From contig NZ_CP147737.1 of NCBI RefSeq assembly GCF_037265215.1, positions 2,264,001 to 2,328,000 of the forward strand: a stretch of DNA of 64,000 bases, read 5' to 3'. This document shows, in pieces, positions 7,121 through 40,291 of the stretch (positions are counted from its first letter, which is position 1; each line of letters begins with the position of its first letter). The notes below the pieces were generated by a model, which was not told the origin of the DNA, ran no database searches, and saw only the letters and a list, made by a program, of their open reading frames with translations. The position numbers were made by a program, and so were the translations under genes. The DNA is from Xenorhabdus griffiniae (GTDB taxonomy: Bacteria > Pseudomonadota > Gammaproteobacteria > Enterobacterales > Enterobacteriaceae).

Positions 7121-8512
7121 TTAGTGCATTAATTGCCATGTAGACGGGAGCGCTATCAAGAATAAAACCACAATTATCGATTTTTCTATAACAGTTAATG
7201 GTACTTTTTCCTGATTTTGTCTGCGTGCGTACAGAAAAACCAGCAATCCAGGAACATATAACACTACCGAAAGTAAGAGGTTCATTAGCCCCGAAGCATA
7301 GAGTAGCCATAACCCATAAGTACAAGAACCCAACGCAATAAAGAGTAAAGCACGGCTACCACGTTGAAAGGAAACTTTCACTAAAAATGCACCGACAAGA
7401 AAGTAGGGGACAAGGATCATCTCAGAAGCAATAGAGAGTAATGTATTGTAATTACTGCCACTTAACCAAATTAAAATCAAAGAGAGTTGAACCGCGCCAT
7501 TTGTGATCCAAAGTGATGATTCAGGTGCTTTCTTACAATTTTGTTTTTTGAATACCTTAGGGAATGAACCGTGTAAGGAAGCGATAAAGGGGACTTCTGC
7601 TGCCATGATTGTCCAGCTTAGGTAAGCACCACAAACAGAAACAATCAAGCCAGCTACAATCACAATTTCACCCGCCGAACCCATTAACCCAACCATTAAA
7701 GTTGCCATAGAAGGGTTACGCATAGCCGCTAACTCAGGTCTGGTGACTAATCCTAGTGAAAGCAGGGTAACCAGCACATACACCCCTAATGCTGAAATAA
7801 CAGCCAGCACAGTTGCGATACCAATATCCTGGCGTCTTCTGGCTCTGGCTGAAACAACAACTGCGCCTTCTACGCCGATGAAAACCCACAGTGTAATTAG
7901 CATCGTATCTTTCACTTGCTGCCAAACAGGAACGCCCATTTCAATGCCGCTGAAATCAAAAGAAAATACATCCATTTTGAACGCGATGACAGCTAAGATA
8001 ATAAATAGGGTTAATGGTAATAATTTTGCCATTGTCGCCAGCAGGTTAACCCCCGCAGCTGTTTGTACACCACGCAATACCAGCCAATGCACGAACCAAA
8101 GTAAAATAGACTCACCGATTAACGATTGCCAGGTATTGCCATCACCAAAAATTACTGCGTGTTCGGTATCGGTGAAAAAACTTAACGCGGCAAAGACAAT
8201 AACTAAATAAGAAACATTGGCAATAATGGCACAGAACCAATATCCCCATGCAGAACAGAATCCAACTAACTCACCGAAACCTTCTCTTGCATAAGTAAAA
8301 ATCCCGCTATCCAAATCAGGGCGCAGTCGTGAGAGTAAAAGTAAGGAAGTGGCCAAAAAGAGAATACCTATACCCGTTATTCCCCAACCAATCATTAATG
8401 CAGCAGGGCTACCTGCTTGCGCCATATTTTGCGGTAAACTGAATACGCCGGCACCGACCATAGAACTGAATACCAGTGCGGTCAAAGACGTAAGGCCTAA
8501 TTTCTTTTCCAA
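7121..8512 (-). CDS. ydgI: Basic amino acid antiporter, YdgI/ArcD family
   Basis: The 463-residue inner-membrane protein has about 12 hydrophobic segments and the APC-superfamily start SSMVGAGVFSLPQNMAQAG. It resembles YdgI and ArcD arginine/ornithine antiporters, including DLDSGIFTYAREGFGELVGF. Such carriers exchange arginine for ornithine across the inner membrane; the substrate is inferred from family. Proximity to ydgH and pntAB matches the E. coli neighbourhood of ydgI. The start is a TTG (8510-8512) with AGGAA seven bases upstream; the first residues MEKKLGLTSL fit the family N-terminus. A terminator follows directly. Confidence 0.82.
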   Translation of the reverse strand: MEKKLGLTSLTALVFSSMVGAGVFSLPQNMAQAGSPAALMIGWGITGIGILFLATSLLLLSRLRPDLDSGIFTYAREGFGELVGFCSAWGYWFCAIIANVSYLVIVFAALSFFTDTEHAVIFGDGNTWQSLIGESILLWFVHWLVLRGVQTAAGVNLLATMAKLLPLTLFIILAVIAFKMDVFSFDFSGIEMGVPVWQQVKDTMLITLWVFIGVEGAVVVSARARRRQDIGIATVLAVISALGVYVLVTLLSLGLVTRPELAAMRNPSMATLMVGLMGSAGEIVIVAGLIVSVCGAYLSWTIMAAEVPFIASLHGSFPKVFKKQNCKKAPESSLWITNGAVQLSLILIWLSGSNYNTLLSIASEMILVPYFLVGAFLVKVSFQRGSRALLFIALGSCTYGLWLLYASGLMNLLLSVVLYVPGLLVFLYARRQNQEKVPLTVIEKSIIVVLFLIALPSTWQLMH

Positions 8513-9105
8513 AGATACGTTCCTAAAAAAATATAATCGACACGATTAGCCAGAACATTTGTTCTGAATATCGAACACATATTGGACATTTATTGCATCC
8601 ATGCGATGGATTGCGAACGGATTTAGTCGATAAAGCTAAAAACAGGGCGATTCTACGGAGTGAAAGGATTGTATGCAATGGTTGACTATGCAAAAAAATA
8701 TAAATTTTATGCATAAAATTCTGTAGAGGAGTAAGAAAACAAATTACGGATAATTTTTCTAATGTGTGTTATTGCCTGAATAAACATAGAGATGATCACA
8801 AGATAAGCACCTTAGATAATATTAGTCATATATTTTACTCTATTGAAACAAATAACAAACAATTATGTATACCAATCCAACCTCAAAATGCGTGCGATGT
8901 CCCCCCGCAAAGCGGGAGAGACATCAGGTTTTATATAGTGTTGTAAATTGCAACTTGAAGTTACATGCGTATAAACAGTATTAATGAAAAGGAAGGATAA
9001 ACAGGATAATTTGCAAATCAAGCCGCAATATAACGTTATTGAGTTGTTAATTTTTAAGAAGTTAAAAAAGTAAATAAATTATGAACTAGCAAAAAAATTC
9101 GATAA
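8513..9105. other. Intergenic region upstream of ydgI
   Basis: About 590 bases holding the ydgI promoter side and one intergenic palindromic repeat (8868-8973). No gene is supported; the short open frames here overlap the repeat or lack ribosome binding sites. Confidence 0.5.
8868..8973 (+). repeat. Intergenic palindromic repeat, copy 2 (subtype A)
   Basis: TATACCAATCCAACCTCAAA starts the copy, the core is CCCCGC-aaa-GCGGGA, and it ends in TTGCAACTTGAAGTTACATG then CGTATA. Plus orientation. Confidence 0.85.
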
Positions 9106-9134
9106 AAAAGGCACAAATGTTCTTTGTGCCTTTT
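9106..9134 (-). terminator. Terminator of ydgH
   Basis: GGCACAAA (9110-9117) pairs with TTTGTGCC (9123-9130), with A-runs and T-runs outside both arms, so it can work in both directions. It lies 28 bases after the ydgH stop. Confidence 0.85.
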
Positions 9135-9161
9135 CCAAAAATGACAGAACTATCTATATGA

Positions 9162-10115
9162 TTATTTGAATAAATCTGCACTGATGGTAACGTTACCACC
9201 ATTAGACTGCCACTCTCGTGTGATATGGTAGTATTTTGCGCCTTTCTCTGCTGCACGTTTAGCAACCTGGTAAGAAACCTCTGGTGCGGTAGTGTAATAA
9301 CCAGAAAAAGTAACGGAATCGAATGGTGCCATCAAAGCGGCGGAGGCTTTATTCAACTCTTGAATTTTTGTACCATCAGGTAAAGTTACAGTGTAACGAC
9401 CACCTTTTGATGACTGGGTTTCAAAAAAGCGACCAACTACATTGCTTGTTGACGTTGAAGAAGCAACGCCTGGAATCTCAACTTTCTTGGCTTCCTCTCC
9501 GCCTTGAGCCAGAGCTTGGCGTCCTGCATCAGAATCGGCTGGGATCACCGCTTCACTAGACTGAACCTTACGTTTTGGTGCGTCTTCTTTATAAACATAG
9601 GCTGTGACGACTTGGTTTCCGCCATTATTCGGTGCAATATCACGGACGATAAAGAAAGAGGCTGCATCTTTCTTTTTAGCTGCCTTAGCGAGAGCTTCTT
9701 TCAGATCAGGATCAGTCGGGAAATAACCATTTACTGTCACAGTATCGAAAGGCTCTAAAGTGATAGCCTCAGCTTTAGGTAACTCTTTGATGCCACGATA
9801 GATACGATAGTTAGGTGTTTTATCTGCTTTTTCCGCATCTTTGTGGTACAAATCGGCGACAACACGCAAATTACCTCGTCCATTAAGATCATCAAGACTT
9901 TGAATATAAAAACTGTCAGCGCCTTTTTTATCGGCCTGACGGGAAACCGCATCCGCAGCTTCATAAATTGCATTAAAACGACCAGTAACTGAGATCCGCT
10001 CAAAAGGTTTAAGCTCTGCCGCTTGTTCTGGAGTTAATTCTTTAGCTGCATGTGCAGCGGTCATCGTGGTTAGTGCGAACACCGCAGTCGCGATGATCGT
10101 TGTCTTCAGCTTCAT
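9162..10115 (-). CDS. ydgH: YdgH, periplasmic protein with three BhsA/McbA-type domains
   Basis: The 317-residue protein has a clear signal peptide (MKLKTTIIATAVFALTTMTAAHA) and three repeats of the DUF1471 (BhsA/McbA) fold, at about residues 35-100, 110-180 and 250-317; each carries an F-x-x-[IV]-[ST]-[FV]-x-G-x-[FY] strand, for example PFERISVTGRF, PFDTVTVNGYF and PFDSVTFSGYY. The family is linked to envelope stress and biofilm, and YdgH has this triple form in E. coli. I chose the ATG at 10113-10115 because AAGGA precedes it by six bases and the signal peptide begins there; the frame is open 35 codons further upstream without support. Confidence 0.9.
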   Translation of the reverse strand: MKLKTTIIATAVFALTTMTAAHAAKELTPEQAAELKPFERISVTGRFNAIYEAADAVSRQADKKGADSFYIQSLDDLNGRGNLRVVADLYHKDAEKADKTPNYRIYRGIKELPKAEAITLEPFDTVTVNGYFPTDPDLKEALAKAAKKKDAASFFIVRDIAPNNGGNQVVTAYVYKEDAPKRKVQSSEAVIPADSDAGRQALAQGGEEAKKVEIPGVASSTSTSNVVGRFFETQSSKGGRYTVTLPDGTKIQELNKASAALMAPFDSVTFSGYYTTAPEVSYQVAKRAAEKGAKYYHITREWQSNGGNVTISADLFK

Positions 10116-10501
10116 AAAAAATCCTTTCGCCTTGCGCATTAAAATATTTATAACGTGCTGAACATTGTTATGCATCACATAGAACGCAATTATTACATGT
10201 AATAATGCCAATTGTCGCAAGAAATTATGCCCTCTAAAGAAACGATTGCTAGCTTTTAGTATATGACACTAAGAATTTTAATAAATATAGTAAGTTATAC
10301 GAGCTAAATAATTGTTTACATTAACAGGTCATTTTGTTTTTCTGATTTTATGATAATTCGTTGACATTATTTTCATTAAGTTACTATTTGGTATTCTATT
10401 GATAGGTTTTGCTGATAGCAGCGATAAAGTCAATCTAATCGTTAAATAGGCATCAACAAGGTAATAATCAGCCATATTTCATTCTTAAAGAAGGAAACAT
10501 T
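10116..10501. other. Divergent promoter region between ydgH and pntA
   Basis: About 385 AT-rich bases separate the divergent ydgH and pntA starts and must hold both promoters. AAGGA precedes pntA. I see no repeat or RNA gene here. Confidence 0.5.
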
Positions 10502-12037
10502 ATGCGTATTGGTGTACCAAAAGAGCGACTTTCCAATGAAGCACGCGTTGCTGCCACACCATCAACCGTGGAGCAATTGCAGAAATTGGGGTTTGACGTC
10601 ACAGTTGAGACAGGCGCAGGGCAACTTGCAAGTTTTGGTGATATTGCTTATCAAAAAGCAGGCGCTGATGTAGCAGAAATCCACCAGGTTTGGCAATCAG
10701 ATATCATTTTGAAAGTAAACGCCCCTGAAGATGATGAAATTGCCTTAATGAAAGAAGGTGCTGCGCTGATTAGTTTTATTTGGCCAGCGCAAAATCCAGC
10801 ATTAATGGCAAAATTAGCCGAACGTAAGGTCACTGTTTTTGCTATGGACGCCGTTCCACGAATTTCCCGCGCACAATCTTTAGATGCCCTCAGTTCAATG
10901 GCCAACATTGCGGGTTATCGTGCCATTGTTGAATCCGCCCACGAATTTGGTCGTTTTTTCACGGGACAAATTACAGCAGCAGGCAAAATACCACCAGCTA
11001 AGGTTATGATTATTGGCGCAGGGGTTGCCGGATTAGCGGCAATTGGTGCAGCGGGTAGTCTTGGTGCGATTGTCCGTGCTTTTGATACACGACCGGAAGT
11101 GAAGGAACAAGTACAAAGCATGGGGGCTGAATTCCTGGAATTAAATTTCAAAGAAGAAGCGGGCAGTGGTGATGGTTATGCAAAAGTGATGTCAGAAGCT
11201 TTTATCAAAGCAGAAATGGAACTATTTGCTGCACAAGCAAAAGAAGTTGATATTATCGTGACAACTGCATTAATTCCGGGGAAACCGGCACCACGGCTTA
11301 TCACAAAAGAAATGGTTGATTCCATGAAACCTGGTAGCGTGATTGTCGATCTGGCTGCTCAAAATGGCGGCAACTGTGAATACACGCAAGCCAATCAATT
11401 GGTTGTGACAGAAAATGGAGTAAAAATTATCGGTTACACAGATTTACCCAGCCGATTGCCGACTCAATCATCACAACTTTATGGATCAAACCTGGTCAAT
11501 TTGCTGAAACTACTGTGCAAAGAAAAAAATGGCGAAATCACCATTGATTTTGATGATGTTGTTGTTCGTGGTGTTACTGTCATTAAAGAAGGTGAAATCA
11601 CCTGGCCAGCTCCACCTATCCAAGTTTCAGCCCAACCAGCAACGACCAAACCGACGTCAGTAAAAAAAGAAGAGAAACCAGCAGAAAAGCCTAAATCTCC
11701 GTGGCTGAAATATGGAGCACTCGCACTGGCGATAATTTTATATGGTTGGTTAGCACATATTGCGCCAAAAGAATTTTTATCTCATTTTACGGTTTTTGCC
11801 TTGTCCTGTGTGGTGGGTTATTACGTTGTCTGGAATGTCAGTCACTCATTGCATACACCATTAATGTCCGTCACCAACGCGATTTCCGGGATCATTGTGG
11901 TTGGCGCCGTACTGCAAATTGGGGAAGGGGGATGGGTAAGTTTCTTCTCATTCATTGCCGTGTTAATTGCCAGCATCAATATTTTCGGTGGCTTTACAGT
12001 CACTCAACGTATGCTGAAAATGTTTCGTAAAGGATAG
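10502..12037 (+). CDS. pntA: NAD(P) transhydrogenase subunit alpha
   Basis: PntA, 511 residues, is nearly the length of the E. coli protein. It carries the NAD(H)-binding domain I at residues 1 to about 380 (start MRIGVPKER, Rossmann glycine-rich [21 protein letters not shown] read in part, and the conserved [20 protein letters not shown] loop region), a linker rich in P and K, and about four membrane helices of domain II at the C-terminus. With PntB it forms the inner-membrane proton-translocating enzyme that reduces NADP+ with NADH, driven by the proton gradient. AAGGA lies a normal distance before the ATG, and pntB begins 10 bases after the stop. Confidence 0.97.
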
Positions 12038-24846: not shown

Positions 24847-25006
24847 ATTCAATTGGCTAAAATCATTGTGATTTATATGGATTATAATGTTTCAGGTTTA
24901 CAATAATAAAATAACCAAGGATCACCGGAGTTGCTAATTTTTAAAATCTGATTAATCTCAACAGGCGGGAATAATGAATAACATTGAATAAAAAATGGGA
25001 GGCAAC

Positions 25007-26098
25007 ATGAAAAAATCATCTCATTTAGAATCACCTAAGTCACCCGTTAATGCATTTACTGAATGGGATCCACTTGAAGAAGTGATTGTTGGTATTGTCG
25101 ATGGTGCCAGGTTTCCTGCATGGCATATGGCACTGGAACCTGTATTACCAGATGATCAAGTCATTAATTTCCAAAGGAATGCGGGACGTTCTTTTCCTAA
25201 AGAACGTATTGAAGCAGCGTCGAGAGAGTTAGAAGAATTTGTGCATATTCTTGCAAGTGAAGGCGTCAAAGTTCGTCGCCCTGACGCTCAAGATCAATCA
25301 CAAATATTTGGTGCACCAGGATGGGCAAGTACAGGATTATATTGTGCCATGCCCAGGGATATACTTTTTGTTATTGGTGATAATATTATCGAATGCCCGT
25401 TGGCATGGCGCTCTCGTTATTTTGAAACGTCAGCCTATAAGTCTTTACTGAAAGAATATTTTAAGGCTGGCGCTAAATGGAGCGCCGCGCCTAAACCGCA
25501 ATTGACTGATGAACAATATAATTTTAATTGGGAGAAAGAAAGTATAGAACAACAGAAAGTTGTTCTTGCAGTAACAGAGTTTGAACCCACTTTTGACGCG
25601 GCTGATTTTTATCGTTGTGGCAGAGATATCATTGCTCAGAAAAGTCATGTAACAAATGATTTTGGCATTGAATGGTTAAGAAGACATATTGGAGATGAAT
25701 ATCGTATACATGTTTTTGAATTTGATGATCCAAACCCAATGCATATTGACGCCACTTTTGTTCCTATTGCGCCAGGGAAGTTACTGATTAACCCTGAAAA
25801 GGTATCGAAAATTCCAAAGTTATTTAAAGGCTGGGATGTATTACATGCACCAAAACCGATTATTCCAGATTCTCATCCTTTATATATGACCAGTAAATGG
25901 ATTAATATGAATATCTTAATGCTGGATGAAAATAGAGTAATTGTAGAAAAACAAGATGAGCCCATGATAGCCGCCATGAAGCGTTGGGGATTCACGCCTA
26001 TCCCATGTAATTTTAGGAATTTCAACAGCTTTGGCGGTTCTTTCCATTGTGCAACATTAGATGTCAGACGCCGAGGCAGCTTGCAATCTTATTTTTAA
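25007..26098 (+). CDS. Glycine amidinotransferase-like enzyme (animal AGAT/CyrA type)
   Basis: The 363-residue protein is strikingly like animal L-arginine:glycine amidinotransferase: shared blocks are STGLYCAMPRDILFVIGDNI, CPLAWRSRYFE, AKWSAAPKP, TEFEPTFDAADFYRCGRDI, DPNPMHIDATF and the C-terminal RRRGSLQSYF. The catalytic Asp (FDAADF), His (MHIDATF) and nucleophile Cys (GGSFHC, near residue 348) are all present. The reaction moves the amidino group of arginine to an amine acceptor, giving a guanidino compound and ornithine; the acceptor here is unknown. GGGAGG six bases before ATG 25007 sets the start. It is followed by desaturase-like and oxygenase genes in the same direction. Confidence 0.88.
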   Translation: MKKSSHLESPKSPVNAFTEWDPLEEVIVGIVDGARFPAWHMALEPVLPDDQVINFQRNAGRSFPKERIEAASRELEEFVHILASEGVKVRRPDAQDQSQIFGAPGWASTGLYCAMPRDILFVIGDNIIECPLAWRSRYFETSAYKSLLKEYFKAGAKWSAAPKPQLTDEQYNFNWEKESIEQQKVVLAVTEFEPTFDAADFYRCGRDIIAQKSHVTNDFGIEWLRRHIGDEYRIHVFEFDDPNPMHIDATFVPIAPGKLLINPEKVSKIPKLFKGWDVLHAPKPIIPDSHPLYMTSKWINMNILMLDENRVIVEKQDEPMIAAMKRWGFTPIPCNFRNFNSFGGSFHCATLDVRRRGSLQSYF

Positions 26099-26170
26099 TA
26101 ATCAATAAAAGTCTAATAAAAAATCATTAACAGTGAATATCTGGAAAGTTAGTTATCATATTTCACATAC

Positions 26171-26276
26171 TATACCAATTCCACTTCAAGTTGCAGATTG
26201 CAAATCAATGTAGTTGTTTATATCTCCCCGCTACACGGGGGAGATATAAGACGCACCTTGAAAGGCGATTGGTATA
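26171..26276 (-). repeat. Intergenic palindromic repeat, copy 3 (subtype B, complete)
   Basis: TATACCAATT at one end and GGTATA at the other, with core CCCCGC-tac-ACGGGGG. Read on the minus strand it starts TATACCAATCGCCTTTCAAG and shows the full subtype B form, with ATATAAACAACTACATTGAT after the core. Confidence 0.85.
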
Positions 26277-26330
26277 AAAACATTAACTTCAAATTATATT
26301 CACTGTTGAAATTTTAACAATGAGGTAAAT

Positions 26331-27290
26331 ATGAAGATATGGAAATATTCCACTAAAGATTCCATCATGTTTATTTTTAGCTTGTTAAATATCATTATAA
26401 GTATAATGATGGCATCATATTGGCATGATTTTTCAATTTCAAATTGGCTATTTAATATAGCTATTCTCTCATTTCTAGCCACATACAATATTATAGTCAT
26501 TTCACATTTCTTTAGTCATACTCCATGGTTTATATCGCCAACTATGAATGGTTTCGTTTCTATGCTCAACTCTATCAATATAGGGCAATCAATCCAAGCT
26601 TATCAATTTACACATGTCAGAAACCATCATAAATATCATAATGATAACGGCAATCCTATTAAGGATAGTTCGTCAACCTTTTTGGGTGGTAAAGATGGGA
26701 AACATAATACATTATTGAATTATGCTATCTTAGGCGGACTCAATACCCTTTATAAAATGATCCCTCACATGTTATGGGCAGTATTTTTATGGGGGAAACC
26801 TTTCAGCCAATATGATCATGGTTTTGAAAAATTAATTTCAAAAATTGAGGTTAATAAGAAGAAAGAACTTATCCAATTACGTTTGGATCGGCTTGCTATG
26901 TTTGTTGGACTCGTTTTTTTCTTTATCTTATCTTGGCAATGGACATTACTCTGTTATTTACCATCGTTATTAGTTGCTTTTATTCTGGTGAATGTTCAAA
27001 ACTATTATGAACATTATGGTGCAAATCCAGAAAATCAATTTTCCAATTCAGTCAGTTATTACGGAAAACTGTACAATTTATTAACTTTTAATGATGGTTA
27101 CCACCAAGAACACCATATTTCAGGTAACACACACTGGAGTCTTCTGCCTAAATTGCGGGAAAGATATGCTTCTAAGTTTAAAGAGCAGGAGAGAATAGTA
27201 AGTCCCGTGCCTGCAATTGTAGGTTTTTTGCATAACAAACGGAAAATGTTACATAAAGATCAAGAGATAAAAATAAGAACCCCAAAATAA
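26331..27290 (+). CDS. Membrane fatty acid desaturase / hydroxylase-like enzyme
   Basis: The 319-residue integral membrane protein has about four to six hydrophobic stretches and the three histidine boxes of the membrane di-iron superfamily: HFFSH (59-63), HVRNHHKYH (95-103) and HQEHH (258-262), plus an extra HYGANPENQF region and NTHW. Enzymes of this group desaturate or hydroxylate acyl chains or other hydrophobic substrates using oxygen. The position between an amidinotransferase and a 2OG oxygenase suggests a tailoring role in a small pathway, not housekeeping membrane lipid synthesis. GAGGT precedes the ATG. Confidence 0.83.
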   Translation: MKIWKYSTKDSIMFIFSLLNIIISIMMASYWHDFSISNWLFNIAILSFLATYNIIVISHFFSHTPWFISPTMNGFVSMLNSINIGQSIQAYQFTHVRNHHKYHNDNGNPIKDSSSTFLGGKDGKHNTLLNYAILGGLNTLYKMIPHMLWAVFLWGKPFSQYDHGFEKLISKIEVNKKKELIQLRLDRLAMFVGLVFFFILSWQWTLLCYLPSLLVAFILVNVQNYYEHYGANPENQFSNSVSYYGKLYNLLTFNDGYHQEHHISGNTHWSLLPKLRERYASKFKEQERIVSPVPAIVGFLHNKRKMLHKDQEIKIRTPK

Positions 27291-27310
27291 ATTAAACGAA
27301 ATATGATTTA

Positions 27311-27368
27311 GAGAGAAATCAGGTTTCATATCGTGTTGTCAATGGCAACTTGAAGTTTAATGCGTATA
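27311..27368 (+). repeat. Intergenic palindromic repeat, copy 4 (right half only)
   Basis: Only the right half of subtype A remains: GAGAAATCAGGTTTCATATC through AACTTGAAGTTTAATGCGTA. The left half and core are missing. Confidence 0.75.
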
Positions 27369-27394
27369 AATAGCGTTTCAAAATGATAGGAGTA

Positions 27395-27427
27395 TTCCTT
27401 ACCCCGCGCGGCGCGCGGGGTAAGGAA
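27395..27427. other. Very GC-rich perfect palindrome upstream of the 2OG oxygenase gene
   Basis: Two 15-base arms, TTCCTTACCCCGCGC and its exact complement, are separated by three bases. In an AT-rich setting this makes a very stable hairpin 35 bases before the oxygenase start. It has no T-run. It resembles an altered core of the nearby repeat family, or may act as an attenuating or mRNA-protecting structure. Confidence 0.7.
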
Positions 27428-27462
27428 CATGAAAACCTATTTAATATATTGAAGGAATAATC

Positions 27463-28317
27463 ATGATGCAAAAAAAATTATCGCTCACAGGAGTGAAGCT
27501 AGAAGAATCAGAATTTGTTATACATGAAACTGAAGGCCGCATAGAAAAAAGTGCTGTTGATACTCTGCTAGATGGTCATCTTGCCGCATACCGAATCCGT
27601 CATTTTTTACCGTGGGAACAACGAAAAAAAATCATTGATAATTTTTGGCGTTCTACAGCCAGAAAACCCCGATATGGTGACGGGATAGATGGCGTAGAGG
27701 GATATTTCCTTGGGGCTTCTCACATAGAAAAAACAACGCCTGAGTATTTCAACGAGGTTGAATATTTTCGGCCAGCCATTTCTCAACTCTTTCAGGGGAC
27801 GGTTAATCCTTTGACACATTTTATAGCGCAATTAAATGGTTCACAGTCAAAGGTGCGGCCAGCCATGTATCAAGGAGCGCCTGCTGGTGATGCCAAAGCT
27901 GTCTATTGGAATAATTCAGGAGAATTTTTGTTATTACCCCATGATGATTTAGCCCAACTAAGCGATCCTCGACAAAATGACTTTGAGATTCAGAGTGTCA
28001 AGCGAGTCATGGCAGTCAATTTTTATGCGGAAGTTCCACAAGGGGGAGGACAATTAAAAGTGTGGAATATTGCCCCTGATATGGAATCTCGTTCTGCTCT
28101 TGGACTCACCCATAGTGGTTTTCCTTATCCTACAGATCGACTCAAAGAACATGAGAGTATGATCATTGATATTGCTCCAGGGGATTTAATCCTACTAAAT
28201 GGCAACTTGATACATGCTGTGTTAACTGGAAATGCCAATCAATTGCAGGAAAAACGGCTACTCATTACATGCTTTATGGGACGTCACAAAGATGGTGATC
28301 TCATTTGGTGGACATAA
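27463..28317 (+). CDS. 2-oxoglutarate/Fe(II)-dependent oxygenase
   Basis: The 284-residue soluble protein has the facial triad of the family: HDD (His160, Asp162) and His251 in LLNGNLIHAV, followed by Arg265 in EKRLLI for 2-oxoglutarate binding. The strand pattern VMAVNFYAEVPQGGGQLKVW leading to the second half also fits a double-stranded beta-helix. The substrate is unknown; hydroxylation of an amino-acid-like or guanidino product of the amidinotransferase is a reasonable guess. Two ATGs in a row (27463, 27466) follow AAGGAA. Confidence 0.8.
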   Translation: MMQKKLSLTGVKLEESEFVIHETEGRIEKSAVDTLLDGHLAAYRIRHFLPWEQRKKIIDNFWRSTARKPRYGDGIDGVEGYFLGASHIEKTTPEYFNEVEYFRPAISQLFQGTVNPLTHFIAQLNGSQSKVRPAMYQGAPAGDAKAVYWNNSGEFLLLPHDDLAQLSDPRQNDFEIQSVKRVMAVNFYAEVPQGGGQLKVWNIAPDMESRSALGLTHSGFPYPTDRLKEHESMIIDIAPGDLILLNGNLIHAVLTGNANQLQEKRLLITCFMGRHKDGDLIWWT

Positions 28318-34116: not shown

Positions 34117-34142
34117 TAAATATCAATCTAAATCTAAATGTT

Positions 34143-34242
34143 TATACCAACCTAACTTCAAAATGCGTGTGATTTCTCCCCGCAAGCGGGGAGAAATCAA
34201 GTTTCAGATTCAGAAATTGCAACTTGCAGTTTATCGAGTATA
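34143..34242 (+). repeat. Intergenic palindromic repeat, copy 9 (subtype A)
   Basis: TATACCAACCTAACTTCAAA at the left, core CCCCGC-aa-GCGGGG, TTTATCGAGTATA at the right. It lies between the decarboxylase stop and its terminator. Confidence 0.85.
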
Positions 34243-34270
34243 ACTAATTGAAAAACTGCCTATTAATTAA

Positions 34271-34303
34271 AAAAGAGCTTAGATAAAGATAAGCTCTTTT
34301 TTA
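34271..34303 (+). terminator. Rho-independent terminator of the decarboxylase
   Basis: AAAAGAGCTTA pairs with TAAGCTCTTTT around an 8-base loop, then TTTATTT. Confidence 0.88.
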
Positions 34304-34709
34304 TTTCAAAAACCCACAATAAATACGTAACCAATTGAAAAATAAAACAATACATAAAAACAACAATCTATCAACATAATAATGTGATTGTTATCACAAA
34401 ATAAAGATATTCTCAATGCGAACTGAAGTTATTGATGTTTAAATCATAAATCATCGCGATTATTTTTATCCTAAATAAAAGCATAATATTTATTAATTAA
34501 AAAATAGAAATTAAATATAAATTCACGCCTTCTATTATTTAAAGGTGATTTTATTACACATAAAATAAATTAACCAAACCATGAAAGAATAAAGATTAAT
34601 GTGATTAAAGAAAATTAAATTAAAGTTTAAAGCTTTTTATCATTTTTATATTGATTTATTAGAAAATATAGAATCACCAATAATCTTTAACTAAAGAAGG
34701 AATTAATAT
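34304..34709. other. Control region of the dioxygenase/radical SAM cassette
   Basis: About 400 very AT-rich bases without a gene. Its composition contrasts with the coding regions on both sides and hints at transferred, possibly silenced DNA. No clear promoter or operator could be picked by eye. Confidence 0.4.
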
Positions 34710-35555
34710 ATGTCGATTACAATCGAGCCTGTCAAGGGAAATTTTGGTGCTTATATAACCTGCCAAAGTCTTTCAGAGCTATCATCAGAAGAATATAAAA
34801 AAATAAAGGTATACTTATCAGAATACGCTTTATTGATTTTCAAAAACCAAAAGATGGATGATGAGGCACTAGTGAATTTTGCACAGCATATAGGAAGCGG
34901 AAGACTCGAAGAACCAGCCAGAAAAATTTCATTATCAGACAATCGAAAATACATCGCTTATTTGACAAATATTCGTGATAGTCATGGTGAACAATTAGGT
35001 TTTGCCGGAAATGATACCGATTTTTGGCATTCTGATCAGGAGTTTAGGATTAATCCCGCCTCCGTTAGCATCTTATATGGTGAAGTTGTGCAGTTTAGTG
35101 GTGGCAATACATCCTTTGCTTCAACAGCGGTAAACCACCTTGGTTTAACCCATGATGAAATATCGATGATGAATGATTTGTATTCCACCCGCCAGCCAGC
35201 AGCTTCACATGACAATGTGCCTCATATTACCGTTGCTCATCCGGTCATGCTCGAAAATATACAAACGAAACGACGGTTTGTTTATGTTAGTGAAAATACT
35301 ATCGCATTTTTTCTCGATAAGAAAATATTACCAAACTCAGACATACTCAAAAACGCCATTTTAGATAAGATCTTGTCACCAAAAAATATTTATTCCCATC
35401 AATGGGAAGAAGGCGATTTGTTGCTATATGACAATAGCCAACTTTTACATCGCCGCGAATGTTTTACCGGAAATAGATTTATCAAAGGATTGAAAATATA
35501 TCCTGATACATCCTACCAACCGGAAATACCTGGTTGGACTGTTGGGGGAATTTGA
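34710..35555 (+). CDS. TauD/clavaminate-synthase-like 2OG-Fe(II) dioxygenase
   Basis: First gene of a three-gene cassette. The 281-residue protein has the iron ligands His107 and Asp109 (FWHSDQEF) and His247 (QLLHRRECFTGNRF), with Arg256 placed to bind 2-oxoglutarate; the N-terminal LLIFKNQKMDDEALVNFAQ block is typical of TauD/TfdA relatives. Members hydroxylate, desaturate or cyclise small acids in catabolism and in antibiotic pathways. AAGAAGGAA precedes the ATG. The next start lies one base after the stop, so the genes are translationally coupled. Substrate unknown. Confidence 0.85.
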   Translation: MSITIEPVKGNFGAYITCQSLSELSSEEYKKIKVYLSEYALLIFKNQKMDDEALVNFAQHIGSGRLEEPARKISLSDNRKYIAYLTNIRDSHGEQLGFAGNDTDFWHSDQEFRINPASVSILYGEVVQFSGGNTSFASTAVNHLGLTHDEISMMNDLYSTRQPAASHDNVPHITVAHPVMLENIQTKRRFVYVSENTIAFFLDKKILPNSDILKNAILDKILSPKNIYSHQWEEGDLLLYDNSQLLHRRECFTGNRFIKGLKIYPDTSYQPEIPGWTVGGI

Positions 35556-35556
35556 T

Positions 35557-36555
35557 ATGAACCTATCAAGAGAAAAAGAGAAATCCATTACTCAATTGAT
35601 TAGAGATAGTAATAAAAAATATATTCATGGGCGTAATCTTAGTCCTGCCGAACCTATGTTAATCAGGGCAGGAATAGCGGGTGATTTGCCATTTAATAGC
35701 TTAACCACAGATGTCGTAACTGGTTGTTTACCTGAAAGTATGGCTTGTTATGGTATGTGTTTTTCCGCTATCTCTAGTTGGGAAAATGGGATCGACTTTG
35801 GTAAACGTATCGATAATCACTTGGATGAAGATATTTTTTCCGGCGATCTACAAGCATTACCTGATTCACAAAAATACGTCAGATGCGGGTGGAATAGTGA
35901 TCCTTCATGGAATTGGGCCGTATCTACGCGAATGGCTGAATTGGCACGAGAAACTGGGATCTTAATGATTTTCATCACCAAATTCTTTAAAAAGATGACT
36001 GATGATATTGCGCAGCGTTTAATCACGGTAAAGGCTGAGATGAGAGTTTCGGTTAGTGCATTAGATACCAATGAGCAATTAAAGAAACGGCTCGCTTTTA
36101 TTGAGTATTATCGCAACGCAGGAGGGATCGTGATCCCCATTGTGTTAACAACATTTTTTAAAGATATTGGATTGATGGAACGACAACAAAATATTGTCGA
36201 TTGGATGGTTATTCATGACTATCCGGCAGCCGAAAACAGCCTGCGATTCCCTAACAATGCTAAAATTTCTGAAATTGTTGATCCTGATATGGTTAAGCCA
36301 TTGGATAAAGGCGACGAATTTTGGAGTGGTCGGCTATACCCTGATCAGCTCGTATTTCCTACCACAACCACTGTTCCAGAAAATTATCAAGGGATTAATA
36401 GTGGTTATCTTTCCGAACTGGATATGGATGAAATCCATCAATTATTCCTCGATCCCGTTAAAACACATCAAGAAGTCATGCAATCTAACTTGCCGTTGTC
36501 CAGTCCAAAAATGTGCGGAGTCTCTGATATGCATCGCCGTGCCCAAGAATATTGA
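35557..36555 (+). CDS. Cys-rich protein, candidate divergent radical SAM-like enzyme
   Basis: I do not recognise this 332-residue protein with certainty. It has a C-x6-C-x3-C cluster (TGCLPESMACYGMC, about residues 57-68) after VTG, which resembles the cluster context of atypical radical SAM proteins such as the Gp37/Gp68 (DUF5131) group with C-x6-C-x2-C. Alternating strands and helices follow (RVSVSALDT, GGIVIPIVLTTFF), as in a partial TIM barrel. Two more cysteines occur (RCGW and KMCGV). ATG 35557, one base after the upstream stop and preceded by GGGGGAATT, is the likely start. The third cassette gene follows by 12 bases. Role unknown. Confidence 0.55.
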   Translation: MNLSREKEKSITQLIRDSNKKYIHGRNLSPAEPMLIRAGIAGDLPFNSLTTDVVTGCLPESMACYGMCFSAISSWENGIDFGKRIDNHLDEDIFSGDLQALPDSQKYVRCGWNSDPSWNWAVSTRMAELARETGILMIFITKFFKKMTDDIAQRLITVKAEMRVSVSALDTNEQLKKRLAFIEYYRNAGGIVIPIVLTTFFKDIGLMERQQNIVDWMVIHDYPAAENSLRFPNNAKISEIVDPDMVKPLDKGDEFWSGRLYPDQLVFPTTTTVPENYQGINSGYLSELDMDEIHQLFLDPVKTHQEVMQSNLPLSSPKMCGVSDMHRRAQEY

Positions 36556-36567
36556 GAAGGTGTAAAA

Positions 36568-37452
36568 ATGAAAATCAGCGAAATAGTAGAGTCAGAAAAT
36601 GGCTCCAAGAAATATTTGCTATCAGCAAGTGACTCAGATTTAAGAAAAAGCGTTGAATCGACTTTCTTTATGCATACAGATCAACATTTGCCTTATCTCT
36701 GCATATCCAGCCAATACGGTTGTGCGGTTGGTTGCGTGTTTTGTGAAACAGGCAGGCAACAACCATTGGGAAATATGACAACAGAACAAATAGTACAGCA
36801 AGTCTTGTTATGTCATGAACATTTATTGCATTCAGGAGCATTGGGTGACAGCCAAAGGCTTAATACGATATTGTTTGCAGGAATGGGTGAGCCAATGTTG
36901 AATCTGAAAGAGATCAGCGGGGCAATAACTGAGTTCAAAAAACAAACATTAGCAAATAGGGTTACCCTGACAACAGTGGGTATTCGCCACGCTGGAGATA
37001 AAATTTATGAGCTTCCGCTTGATATGATTTCCATTTCTCTTCATGCCACCACAGACGAACAGCGTGACATGCTCATTCCATCAAAAGCAAAATTTGGTAT
37101 CAAAGACCTTCTTGACCATTTTTCAACATATCATCACCATACAGGTGTACCTGTTATCGTCAATTATCTGATGATAGAGGGAATCAATGATTCCCAAGAG
37201 GATTTGGCACGGTTAAAAGATCTGGTGGATAAAGACACATTCATTATCAAGTTAAAGTACTTGAATGAAGTAAGTGATATCAATGGCATAACATTGAATC
37301 CTTCAGAAAATATGCCGTTTTTTGCCCGATCACTTACCGAAGCCGGTTTTCGGTGTATATCAGATAAAAGTGATGGAACAGAAATTTGGGGAGGTTGTGG
37401 ACAATTAAAATCTCAAGTCAGGGATATTCGCAGTAAGTATCGAATTATGTAA
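36568..37452 (+). CDS. RlmN/Cfr-like radical SAM methyltransferase lacking the N-terminal domain
   Basis: The 294-residue protein has the radical SAM motif CAVGCVFC (Cys52, 56, 59), GMGEP for SAM binding, SLHA and the C-terminal GGCGQLKSQ. Both cysteines used by RlmN/Cfr for methyl transfer are present: Cys45 in LCISSQ and Cys277 in GGCGQL. RlmN is about 384 residues; here about 70-90 N-terminal residues that form the RNA-handling domain are missing. RlmN itself normally sits near ispG, so this is an extra paralogue. It may methylate a small molecule made by its neighbours, or rRNA or tRNA as self-protection (both inference). Confidence 0.85.
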   Translation: MKISEIVESENGSKKYLLSASDSDLRKSVESTFFMHTDQHLPYLCISSQYGCAVGCVFCETGRQQPLGNMTTEQIVQQVLLCHEHLLHSGALGDSQRLNTILFAGMGEPMLNLKEISGAITEFKKQTLANRVTLTTVGIRHAGDKIYELPLDMISISLHATTDEQRDMLIPSKAKFGIKDLLDHFSTYHHHTGVPVIVNYLMIEGINDSQEDLARLKDLVDKDTFIIKLKYLNEVSDINGITLNPSENMPFFARSLTEAGFRCISDKSDGTEIWGGCGQLKSQVRDIRSKYRIM

Positions 37453-37483
37453 TATGTCACTATTACGTCATCATTTGGCTCGT

Positions 37484-37525
37484 GCGATGGATGCTCCACA
37501 AGACATCCATCGCAGATATTTTTTT
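37484..37525 (+). terminator. Rho-independent terminator of the cassette
   Basis: GCGATGGATG pairs with CATCCATCGC around a 10-base loop and is followed by AGATATTTTTTTATTTT. The T-run overlaps the end of the opposing fragment gene. Confidence 0.85.
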
Positions 37526-37808
37526 ATTTTATTCCCATCCATACAGTCCAAAAATCTTTCTCAACGATATCCGTATCATTACCCAGCGATTTTTCAATAT
37601 GCTTGATTAGATAAGCTATCTCTTCATCACTTAATTCATGCAATATAGAGCGCCCTTTACGCGCCTGAAACTCTACGGCTAATTGTGAAAAATTTTTATA
37701 GACAGTCTTCTTTTCCAGAAGAGAAAATGCCTTAACTTGTTTAAAACCAATGGATTGTAAGCCATCAATCACTTCAATACCTAATAATGGTACAAGATAT
37801 GACCGAGA
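37524..37808 (-). pseudogene. C-terminal fragment of a probable SAM methyltransferase
   Basis: The minus-strand frame from a TAA at 37809-37811 to the stop at 37524 encodes about 94 residues including VPLLGIEVIDGLQSIGFKQV and ending DFWTVWMGIK, the kind of end seen in class I methyltransferases. No SAM-binding motif remains and there is no good start, so this looks like the tail of a gene whose 5' part has been lost. Confidence 0.5.
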
Positions 37809-39469: not shown

Positions 39470-40291
39470 ATGAAAAATGAAAGAAGACTTTTCCTGAAAC
39501 AGGCGAGTATTACTGGTGCAGTATTTTCATTATTACCGCTGGTTCCAACAGCAGCTTTTGCCTCTTCACATAATCAATCAAAGAAAGAGAATGGTATTGA
39601 TATAGGCGTTTGCGAGATGACACCAGAGGAAATGTCAGGTCCATATTTTATAAATAACAAATTGCTAAGAAGGAATATAACAGAAGATGAACCAGGGATC
39701 CCTCTGTTATTGACAATGAAAGTCATTGATTCGGTAACCTGTAAGCCGCTGAATGATATCCTTATTGATATATGGCATTGCAATGCAATGGGAAAGTATT
39801 CAGGTTGGAAATACATAAACCCAGACCTTGAGGCTCCATCCGATCATATAGGAACGATTTCGAGAACTGATGAAAGCACATTTCTTCGTGGAGCACAAAG
39901 GACAGACAAAGAAGGCATCGTCAGATTCACCACCATTTTCCCCGGTTTTTATGCTGGAAGAGCGATACATATTCATTTATCAGCAAGGAATGCGAATGTA
40001 CAAAAAAGACAGGAAGATAAATTCTATTTTGTCGGCCAACTATATTTCCCTGAGGATATCTCTAAAGAAGTGATGAGTAATGATATGTATTCTCCAAGGG
40101 AGGTCAATAGACTTAAAAATGAAGATGATTCCATCTTTTCTGGAGTTAAAAATAGGGCTGCTATTTTGACAATAAATAAAATAGGCGATAATCCTTTGGA
40201 TGGATTACACGGAAAGATAGTTTTATCTATTAATAAAGACAATGTATCTAAGAAAATAACACCTAACGACTTAGCTAAATACACTGTATAA
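39470..40291 (+). CDS. Exported intradiol ring-cleavage dioxygenase-like protein
   Basis: The 273-residue protein has an N-terminal RRLFLKQASITGAVFSL segment, a Tat-like or Sec signal with twin arginine, ending near AAFAS. The mature part carries GPYF near the start, IDIWHCNAMGKYSG with a ligand Tyr, and TIFPGFYAGRAIHIHL with the Tyr and two His that bind Fe(III) in protocatechuate 3,4-dioxygenase relatives. Those enzymes cleave catechol rings between the hydroxyls. Export is unusual for aromatic catabolism, and no pathway genes are nearby; exported single-gene members are known as a separate group. AAGGAG precedes the ATG. Confidence 0.83.
   Translation: MKNERRLFLKQASITGAVFSLLPLVPTAAFASSHNQSKKENGIDIGVCEMTPEEMSGPYFINNKLLRRNITEDEPGIPLLLTMKVIDSVTCKPLNDILIDIWHCNAMGKYSGWKYINPDLEAPSDHIGTISRTDESTFLRGAQRTDKEGIVRFTTIFPGFYAGRAIHIHLSARNANVQKRQEDKFYFVGQLYFPEDISKEVMSNDMYSPREVNRLKNEDDSIFSGVKNRAAILTINKIGDNPLDGLHGKIVLSINKDNVSKKITPNDLAKYTV

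Follow-up and report, generated by a model that had tools for sequence, protein, structure and literature searches.

Three co-directional genes in Xenorhabdus griffiniae, encoding a TauD-like dioxygenase, a protein whose family carries no name in the libraries searched and an RlmN/Cfr-like enzyme, raise the question of whether they work together and, if so, on what. We examined them within a window of 64,000 nt, the whole stretch of DNA analysed here, which lies in a genome assembled as a single contig of 4.77 Mb. The features of the locus are as follows.

34117..34709, + strand: AT-rich leader, G+C 23.3% overall and 19.8% in the last 400 bases
34710..35555, + strand: TauD/TfdA-type Fe(II)/2-oxoglutarate oxygenase, 281 aa (PF02668 at 2e-31; H107xD109...H247 and R256 invariant)
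35557..36555, + strand: middle protein, 332 aa, with a radical-SAM-like predicted fold and C57-X6-C64-X3-C68 (AF2 pLDDT 94.9; fold matches)
36568..37452, + strand: RlmN/Cfr-like class A radical SAM methylase lacking the N-terminal domain, 294 aa (PF04055 at 7e-11; TIGR00048 166 bits against a cut-off of 290)
37483..37525, + strand: likely rho-independent terminator, hairpin 37483-37514 and T-run 37519-37525

The ORF coordinates and junctions bear out the layout proposed in a first-pass annotation, with gaps of 1 base between the TauD and middle genes (TGA-T-ATG) and 12 bases between the middle and RlmN-like genes (TGA-GAAGGTGTAAAA-ATG); we take the ATG at 35557 as the middle start, the automatic ORF call reaching back to a TTG at 35542. 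The AT-rich region of about 400 bases that it placed in front is there as well: at 19.8% G+C, against a window mean of 39.3%, the 400 bases 5' of the TauD gene equal the lowest 400-base value in the window (step 50). So is the terminator behind, where folding of 37450-37540 yields a hairpin followed by seven T (-22.7 kcal/mol, z -3.96), a structure absent from the output of a consensus terminator scan limited to loops of 3-8. Because all three proteins have close orthologues and dN is well below dS in all three genes wherever dS could be computed, the ORFs are not products of chance. An X. griffiniae contig matches the three proteins at 98 to 99%, and the middle protein at 99%.

Other genes in the window deserve mention in their own right. 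On the - strand at 37524-37772, an 82-aa ORF corresponds to part of a longer gene (259 aa in loci L050, L051 and L003; 277 aa in L005) and is likely a remnant. Another compact group with three enzyme-like proteins lies at 24995-28317 (+ strand): an amidinotransferase-like protein recognized by eye and unmatched in Pfam, a PF00487 fatty acid desaturase, and a PF22814 oxygenase of the WelO5 type whose H-D-D, read by eye, is not a halogenase motif. The ORF at 39470-40291 (+ strand) encodes a PF00775 protein resembling ring-cleavage dioxygenases; judged by eye, it probably has a twin-arginine signal.

The first protein is a TauD/TfdA family member, as had been proposed, with 110 bits against PF02668 (2e-31; cut-off 27). 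Its H107, D109, H247 and R256 are invariant in 39 aligned rows, comprising the window protein and 38 of its 73 homologues. While it shares the PF02668 fold family and the Fe(II) triad with TauD/TfdA dioxygenases such as the TfdA-like 5bke and ScoE, it stays below the equivalog cut-off for taurine dioxygenase (46 bits against 313) and below that for ScoE (57 bits against 400). The solved structures related to it by sequence, TfdA-like, ScoE and TauD enzymes, match at E 4e-14 or weaker and do not indicate a substrate.

The third protein carries a radical SAM core (PF04055, 7e-11) together with C45, C52/C56/C59 (CX3CX2C) and C277, all of which align with cysteines of the full-length RlmN encoded separately in the same genome (563 bits); we take C45, C277 and the CX3CX2C motif to have the catalytic roles of their counterparts. 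It thus retains the core, motif and both catalytic cysteines of RlmN/Cfr, yet it starts at the point that corresponds to the end of the N-terminal part in full-length RlmN, lacks the PF21016 domain, and falls well under the curated cut-offs for RlmN or Cfr proper (TIGR00048, 166 bits against 290; Cfr, 109 against 530). The label RlmN/Cfr-like therefore holds, for a protein with a shortened N-terminus. In a midpoint-rooted tree of 59 rows (a selection of third-protein homologues plus three), one part unites 13 full-length RlmN with six short rows, and the other contains 40 short rows (97/93), set apart from the full-length ones. All seven RlmN-like rows linked to the TauD and middle genes fall in a single 20-row clade (98/94) within those 40; linkage is thus indicated for seven of the 20, six by equal contig sizes alone, including one for which the shared contig is a 4.4 Mb replicon. 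A protein of Enterobacter asburiae (P0169) shares 54% identity with the third protein; the named middle-protein homologues, names existing for part of the matches, include none from that species.

The middle protein has no match in Pfam, NCBIfam or PHROGs. Its predicted structure, of high confidence (AF2 pLDDT 94.9), is a partial (beta/alpha)6 barrel as in the radical SAM superfamily, which supports by prediction the radical-SAM-like assignment of the first-pass annotation; the description Cys-rich was overstated, there being five cysteines in 332 residues. Three of these, C57, C64 and C68, are invariant in 76/76 rows and could ligate a putative SAM-binding cluster, in a CX6CX3C spacing that is not the usual CX3CX2C. 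Since the PF04055 profile matched 0/34 family members at E 0.5, we term the protein radical-SAM-like by fold. In one structure comparison the nearest fold was spore photoproduct lyase (4fhf and relatives), with which it shares 13% identity and from whose CX3CX2C cluster motif its own spacing differs. Foldseek against the PDB ranked SkfB first (E 1.1e-3, TM 0.41), with no match at or below 0.001 and with SuiB and PqqE also among the matches; PDB sequence searches gave chance-level matches (E 0.5 to 0.8). Neither these sequence searches nor the family searches identified the protein as a known catabolic enzyme. We also rejected two candidate kinships: with the RlmN-like radical SAM family (hhalign profile probability 0.2%) and with DUF5131 (PF07505), whose CX6CX2C and strand motifs resemble those of the middle protein by eye (0.1%, against a three-row DUF5131 profile). 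In L054, a short locus, a DUF5131 protein occurs together with an ORF of 425 aa, which judged by eye may be the three-Cys-motif partner. By its predicted fold, then, the middle protein is radical-SAM-like and belongs to a family unnamed in the profile libraries searched.

How constant is the trio? Across 30 Xenorhabdus genomes (the window's own and 29 others), the TauD protein occurs in 13, the middle protein in 13 (12/29 including the window's own genome, plus G426, the source of L001) and the RlmN-like protein in eight. TauD and middle proteins are both present in 12/30; G003 retains only part of the middle gene, and in G020 TauD survives only as pieces containing stops. All eight genomes with the RlmN-like gene fall among the 12 with the pair (p 8.5e-5, kinship ignored), and in six of them (G000, G426, G008, G011, G014 and G016) it adjoins the pair; in G004 and G005 it lies elsewhere, next to other genes. 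No RlmN-like copy was found in the remaining 4/12 pair genomes: G012, G024 (82% complete), G025 (where the pair runs off the contig) and G028. The conserved unit is accordingly the oxygenase and middle protein, with the RlmN-like gene optional: the trio proposed as a unit does recur elsewhere and moves as a block, but its core is the pair. Its distribution is very patchy, at 12/60 relatives including the window's own. Solitary RlmN-like genes occur away from the pair at L045 12522-13412 and L046 9782-10672, each next to an AraC-type regulator and with a phospholipase-like ORF of 760 aa close by (by eye); in L045 they are preceded by two large insecticidal-toxin-complex-like ORFs, also by eye.

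The cassette is mobile. At six of eight Xenorhabdus loci the pair is flanked, as in the window, by genes for a pyridoxal decarboxylase and an MFS protein, sometimes with extra genes intervening. In L049 (taken as X. cabanillasii) the whole trio occupies another chromosomal site, surrounded by flagellar genes identified by eye, and L052 (X. mauleonii) has a remnant, only part of the middle gene, at a third site. Synonymous sites of TauD are saturated in L002 and L006 (X. yunnanensis, X. japonica), against neighbours with dS of 0.48 to 0.75 (three genes for L002), a disparity that in L002 points to exchange by transfer; in L050 and L051 the dS of the cassette resembles that of its flanks, as expected of plain inheritance. 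The genes also decay: in L050 (X. doucetiae-like; 7875-10877) an inserted transposase-like ORF breaks TauD after residue 263, in L048 TauD lacks its first ~30 residues, and together with the partial middle gene of L052 these losses indicate a dispensable function. No scaffold synthase or carrier gene stands constantly beside the cassette at the eight loci, so that any pathway has to be fed by primary metabolism or by genes located elsewhere.

Outside Xenorhabdus adjacency is judged from contig sizes and one fusion protein: equal size of the longest contig among hits served as a test of linkage, with chance expectation obtained by offset. The 73 TauD and 90 middle-protein hits share 21 contig sizes where 0.23 are expected; four of these are megabase replicons, indicating the same replicon only, and two that were read (L048, L049) carry the genes adjacent. 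Middle and third proteins share five sizes (0.5 expected), one being the X. griffiniae contig and one a megabase replicon, and TauD and third proteins share five (0.37 expected). Sizes 40,181 and 45,231 recur in all three hit lists, 4,874 in those of the middle and third proteins, and 3,109 and 29,196 in those of TauD and the third; matches at 1513 (TauD/middle) and 1737 (TauD/third), too short for both genes, were counted as chance. The TauD and middle distance matrices correlate closely in a mirror-tree comparison of 19 pairs, namely the window's own together with 18 of the 21 size-matched ones (r 0.942; Mantel p 0.0001), and still do in 14 pairs without Xenorhabdus (r 0.902; Mantel p 0.0001); one TauD-middle fusion protein (P0078) also exists. 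The two homologues thus do co-occur, in 12/30 genomes within the genus, and, judged by their sequence distances, they are co-inherited beyond it.

Named homologues of at least one cassette protein come from Xenorhabdus, Paraburkholderia, Caballeronia, Streptomyces, Sphingobacterium and others. Middle-protein homologues are named from Francisella hispaniensis, Actinosynnema, Pseudoalteromonas and Aureivirga; for these organisms a word-based search, with names for part of its hits, names no TauD. A contig scan with one protein extended to six records of Xenorhabdus and a single MAG. Among 369 genomes of the class, the only match was the window's own, and there was none in 395 genomes of the family of G453 or in 393 of the order of G380, the taxa of both having been guessed from RlmN identity; as these searches of distant genomes had no known positive, their emptiness is only a hint of rarity. 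A search of plasmid sequences gave no match, and the 36 pattern matches in viral contigs included no relative. A match of a Burkholderia 16S probe in one genome was dismissed as chance, the surrounding stretch having no Rfam match. Among the hosts are leaf-nodule symbionts, Ca. P. kirkii and calva (TauD search) and Ca. B. verschuerenii (third-protein search). In the literature consulted on a link to their streptol, kirkamide or other products there was nothing on these genes, and literature searches for the trio or for small-molecule class A enzymes turned up no paper naming TauD.

Taken together, gene make-up, co-occurrence and mobility make a small pathway of an oxygenase, a radical enzyme and an optional methylase the most economical reading, and we lean, somewhat better than evenly, towards a mobile cassette that produces a small metabolite. 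The pair probably builds the molecule and the third gene is probably an optional finishing enzyme. The oxygenase and radical-SAM-like enzyme would act in succession on the same small substrate: the 2-oxoglutarate/Fe(II) oxygenase would hydroxylate or desaturate an unactivated carbon, and the middle protein would then use a 5'-deoxyadenosyl radical to rearrange or cleave it. The third protein, a class A-type methylase freed of its RNA-binding domain, might optionally methylate an sp2 carbon of the final product. Although the catalytic residues are present, this chemistry is a proposal because we infer it from the enzyme families, and binding of a cluster and SAM, the order of steps, the small-molecule substrate and the methylation are all putative.

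The enzymes might instead hypermodify a tRNA or rRNA nucleotide, the third still acting on adenine. To our knowledge all characterised class A radical SAM enzymes act on adenine in RNA, and spore photoproduct lyase, the nearest fold to the middle protein, works on thymine dimers; but the third protein is missing the PF21016 of its full-length relatives, TauD and the middle protein have no RNA-binding domain according to the family scans, and a distribution so patchy (12/60 relatives, with blank distant searches) is unlike that of a housekeeping modification, so that we consider an RNA-modifying unit unlikely. Maturation of a ribosomal peptide encoded elsewhere would suit the Foldseek matches to the peptide maturase SkfB, at rank 1 with E 1.1e-3, and to SuiB and PqqE. 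Yet a by-eye comparison of the leaders of ten loci (600 bases upstream, ATG starts, at least 20 aa) revealed no shared small ORF, such ORFs being common to the close pair L002/L006 only, and one of them being the tail of the decarboxylase gene; we regard this reading as rather improbable.

That the three are unrelated neighbours sharing merely a promoter would suit the finding that several species lack the RlmN-like gene at the site and two have it elsewhere; co-inheritance of the pair, the TauD-middle fusion and the nested presence of the third gene make it a distinctly poor prospect. The first-pass annotation had raised a ribosome-targeting compound with self-protection, and Cfr relatives do protect ribosomes. 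This proposal found no support: the third protein has no N-terminal domain and reaches 109 bits where the Cfr cut-off is 530, a full RlmN is encoded separately in the genome, no third-gene copy was found in 4/12 pair genomes, and a gene both optional and separable argues against a protective role, leaving an antibiotic cassette highly improbable. Our preferred reading of a metabolite cassette has its own counterpoint in the 0.2% hhalign probability between the middle and RlmN-like families and in a best Foldseek match of only E 1.1e-3, TM 0.41.

More tentatively, and with the odds somewhat against it, the middle protein may found a new CX6CX3C radical-SAM family paired with a 2-oxoglutarate oxygenase, accompanied by an optional class A methylase that left RNA for a small molecule. 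If true, this would reveal a radical-SAM family invisible to the sequence profiles searched, a pathway design in which two modes of C-H activation are coupled, and a class A methylase that works on a small molecule. With homologues in Xenorhabdus, Paraburkholderia, Caballeronia, Streptomyces and Sphingobacterium, the product may matter in several host-associated lifestyles.
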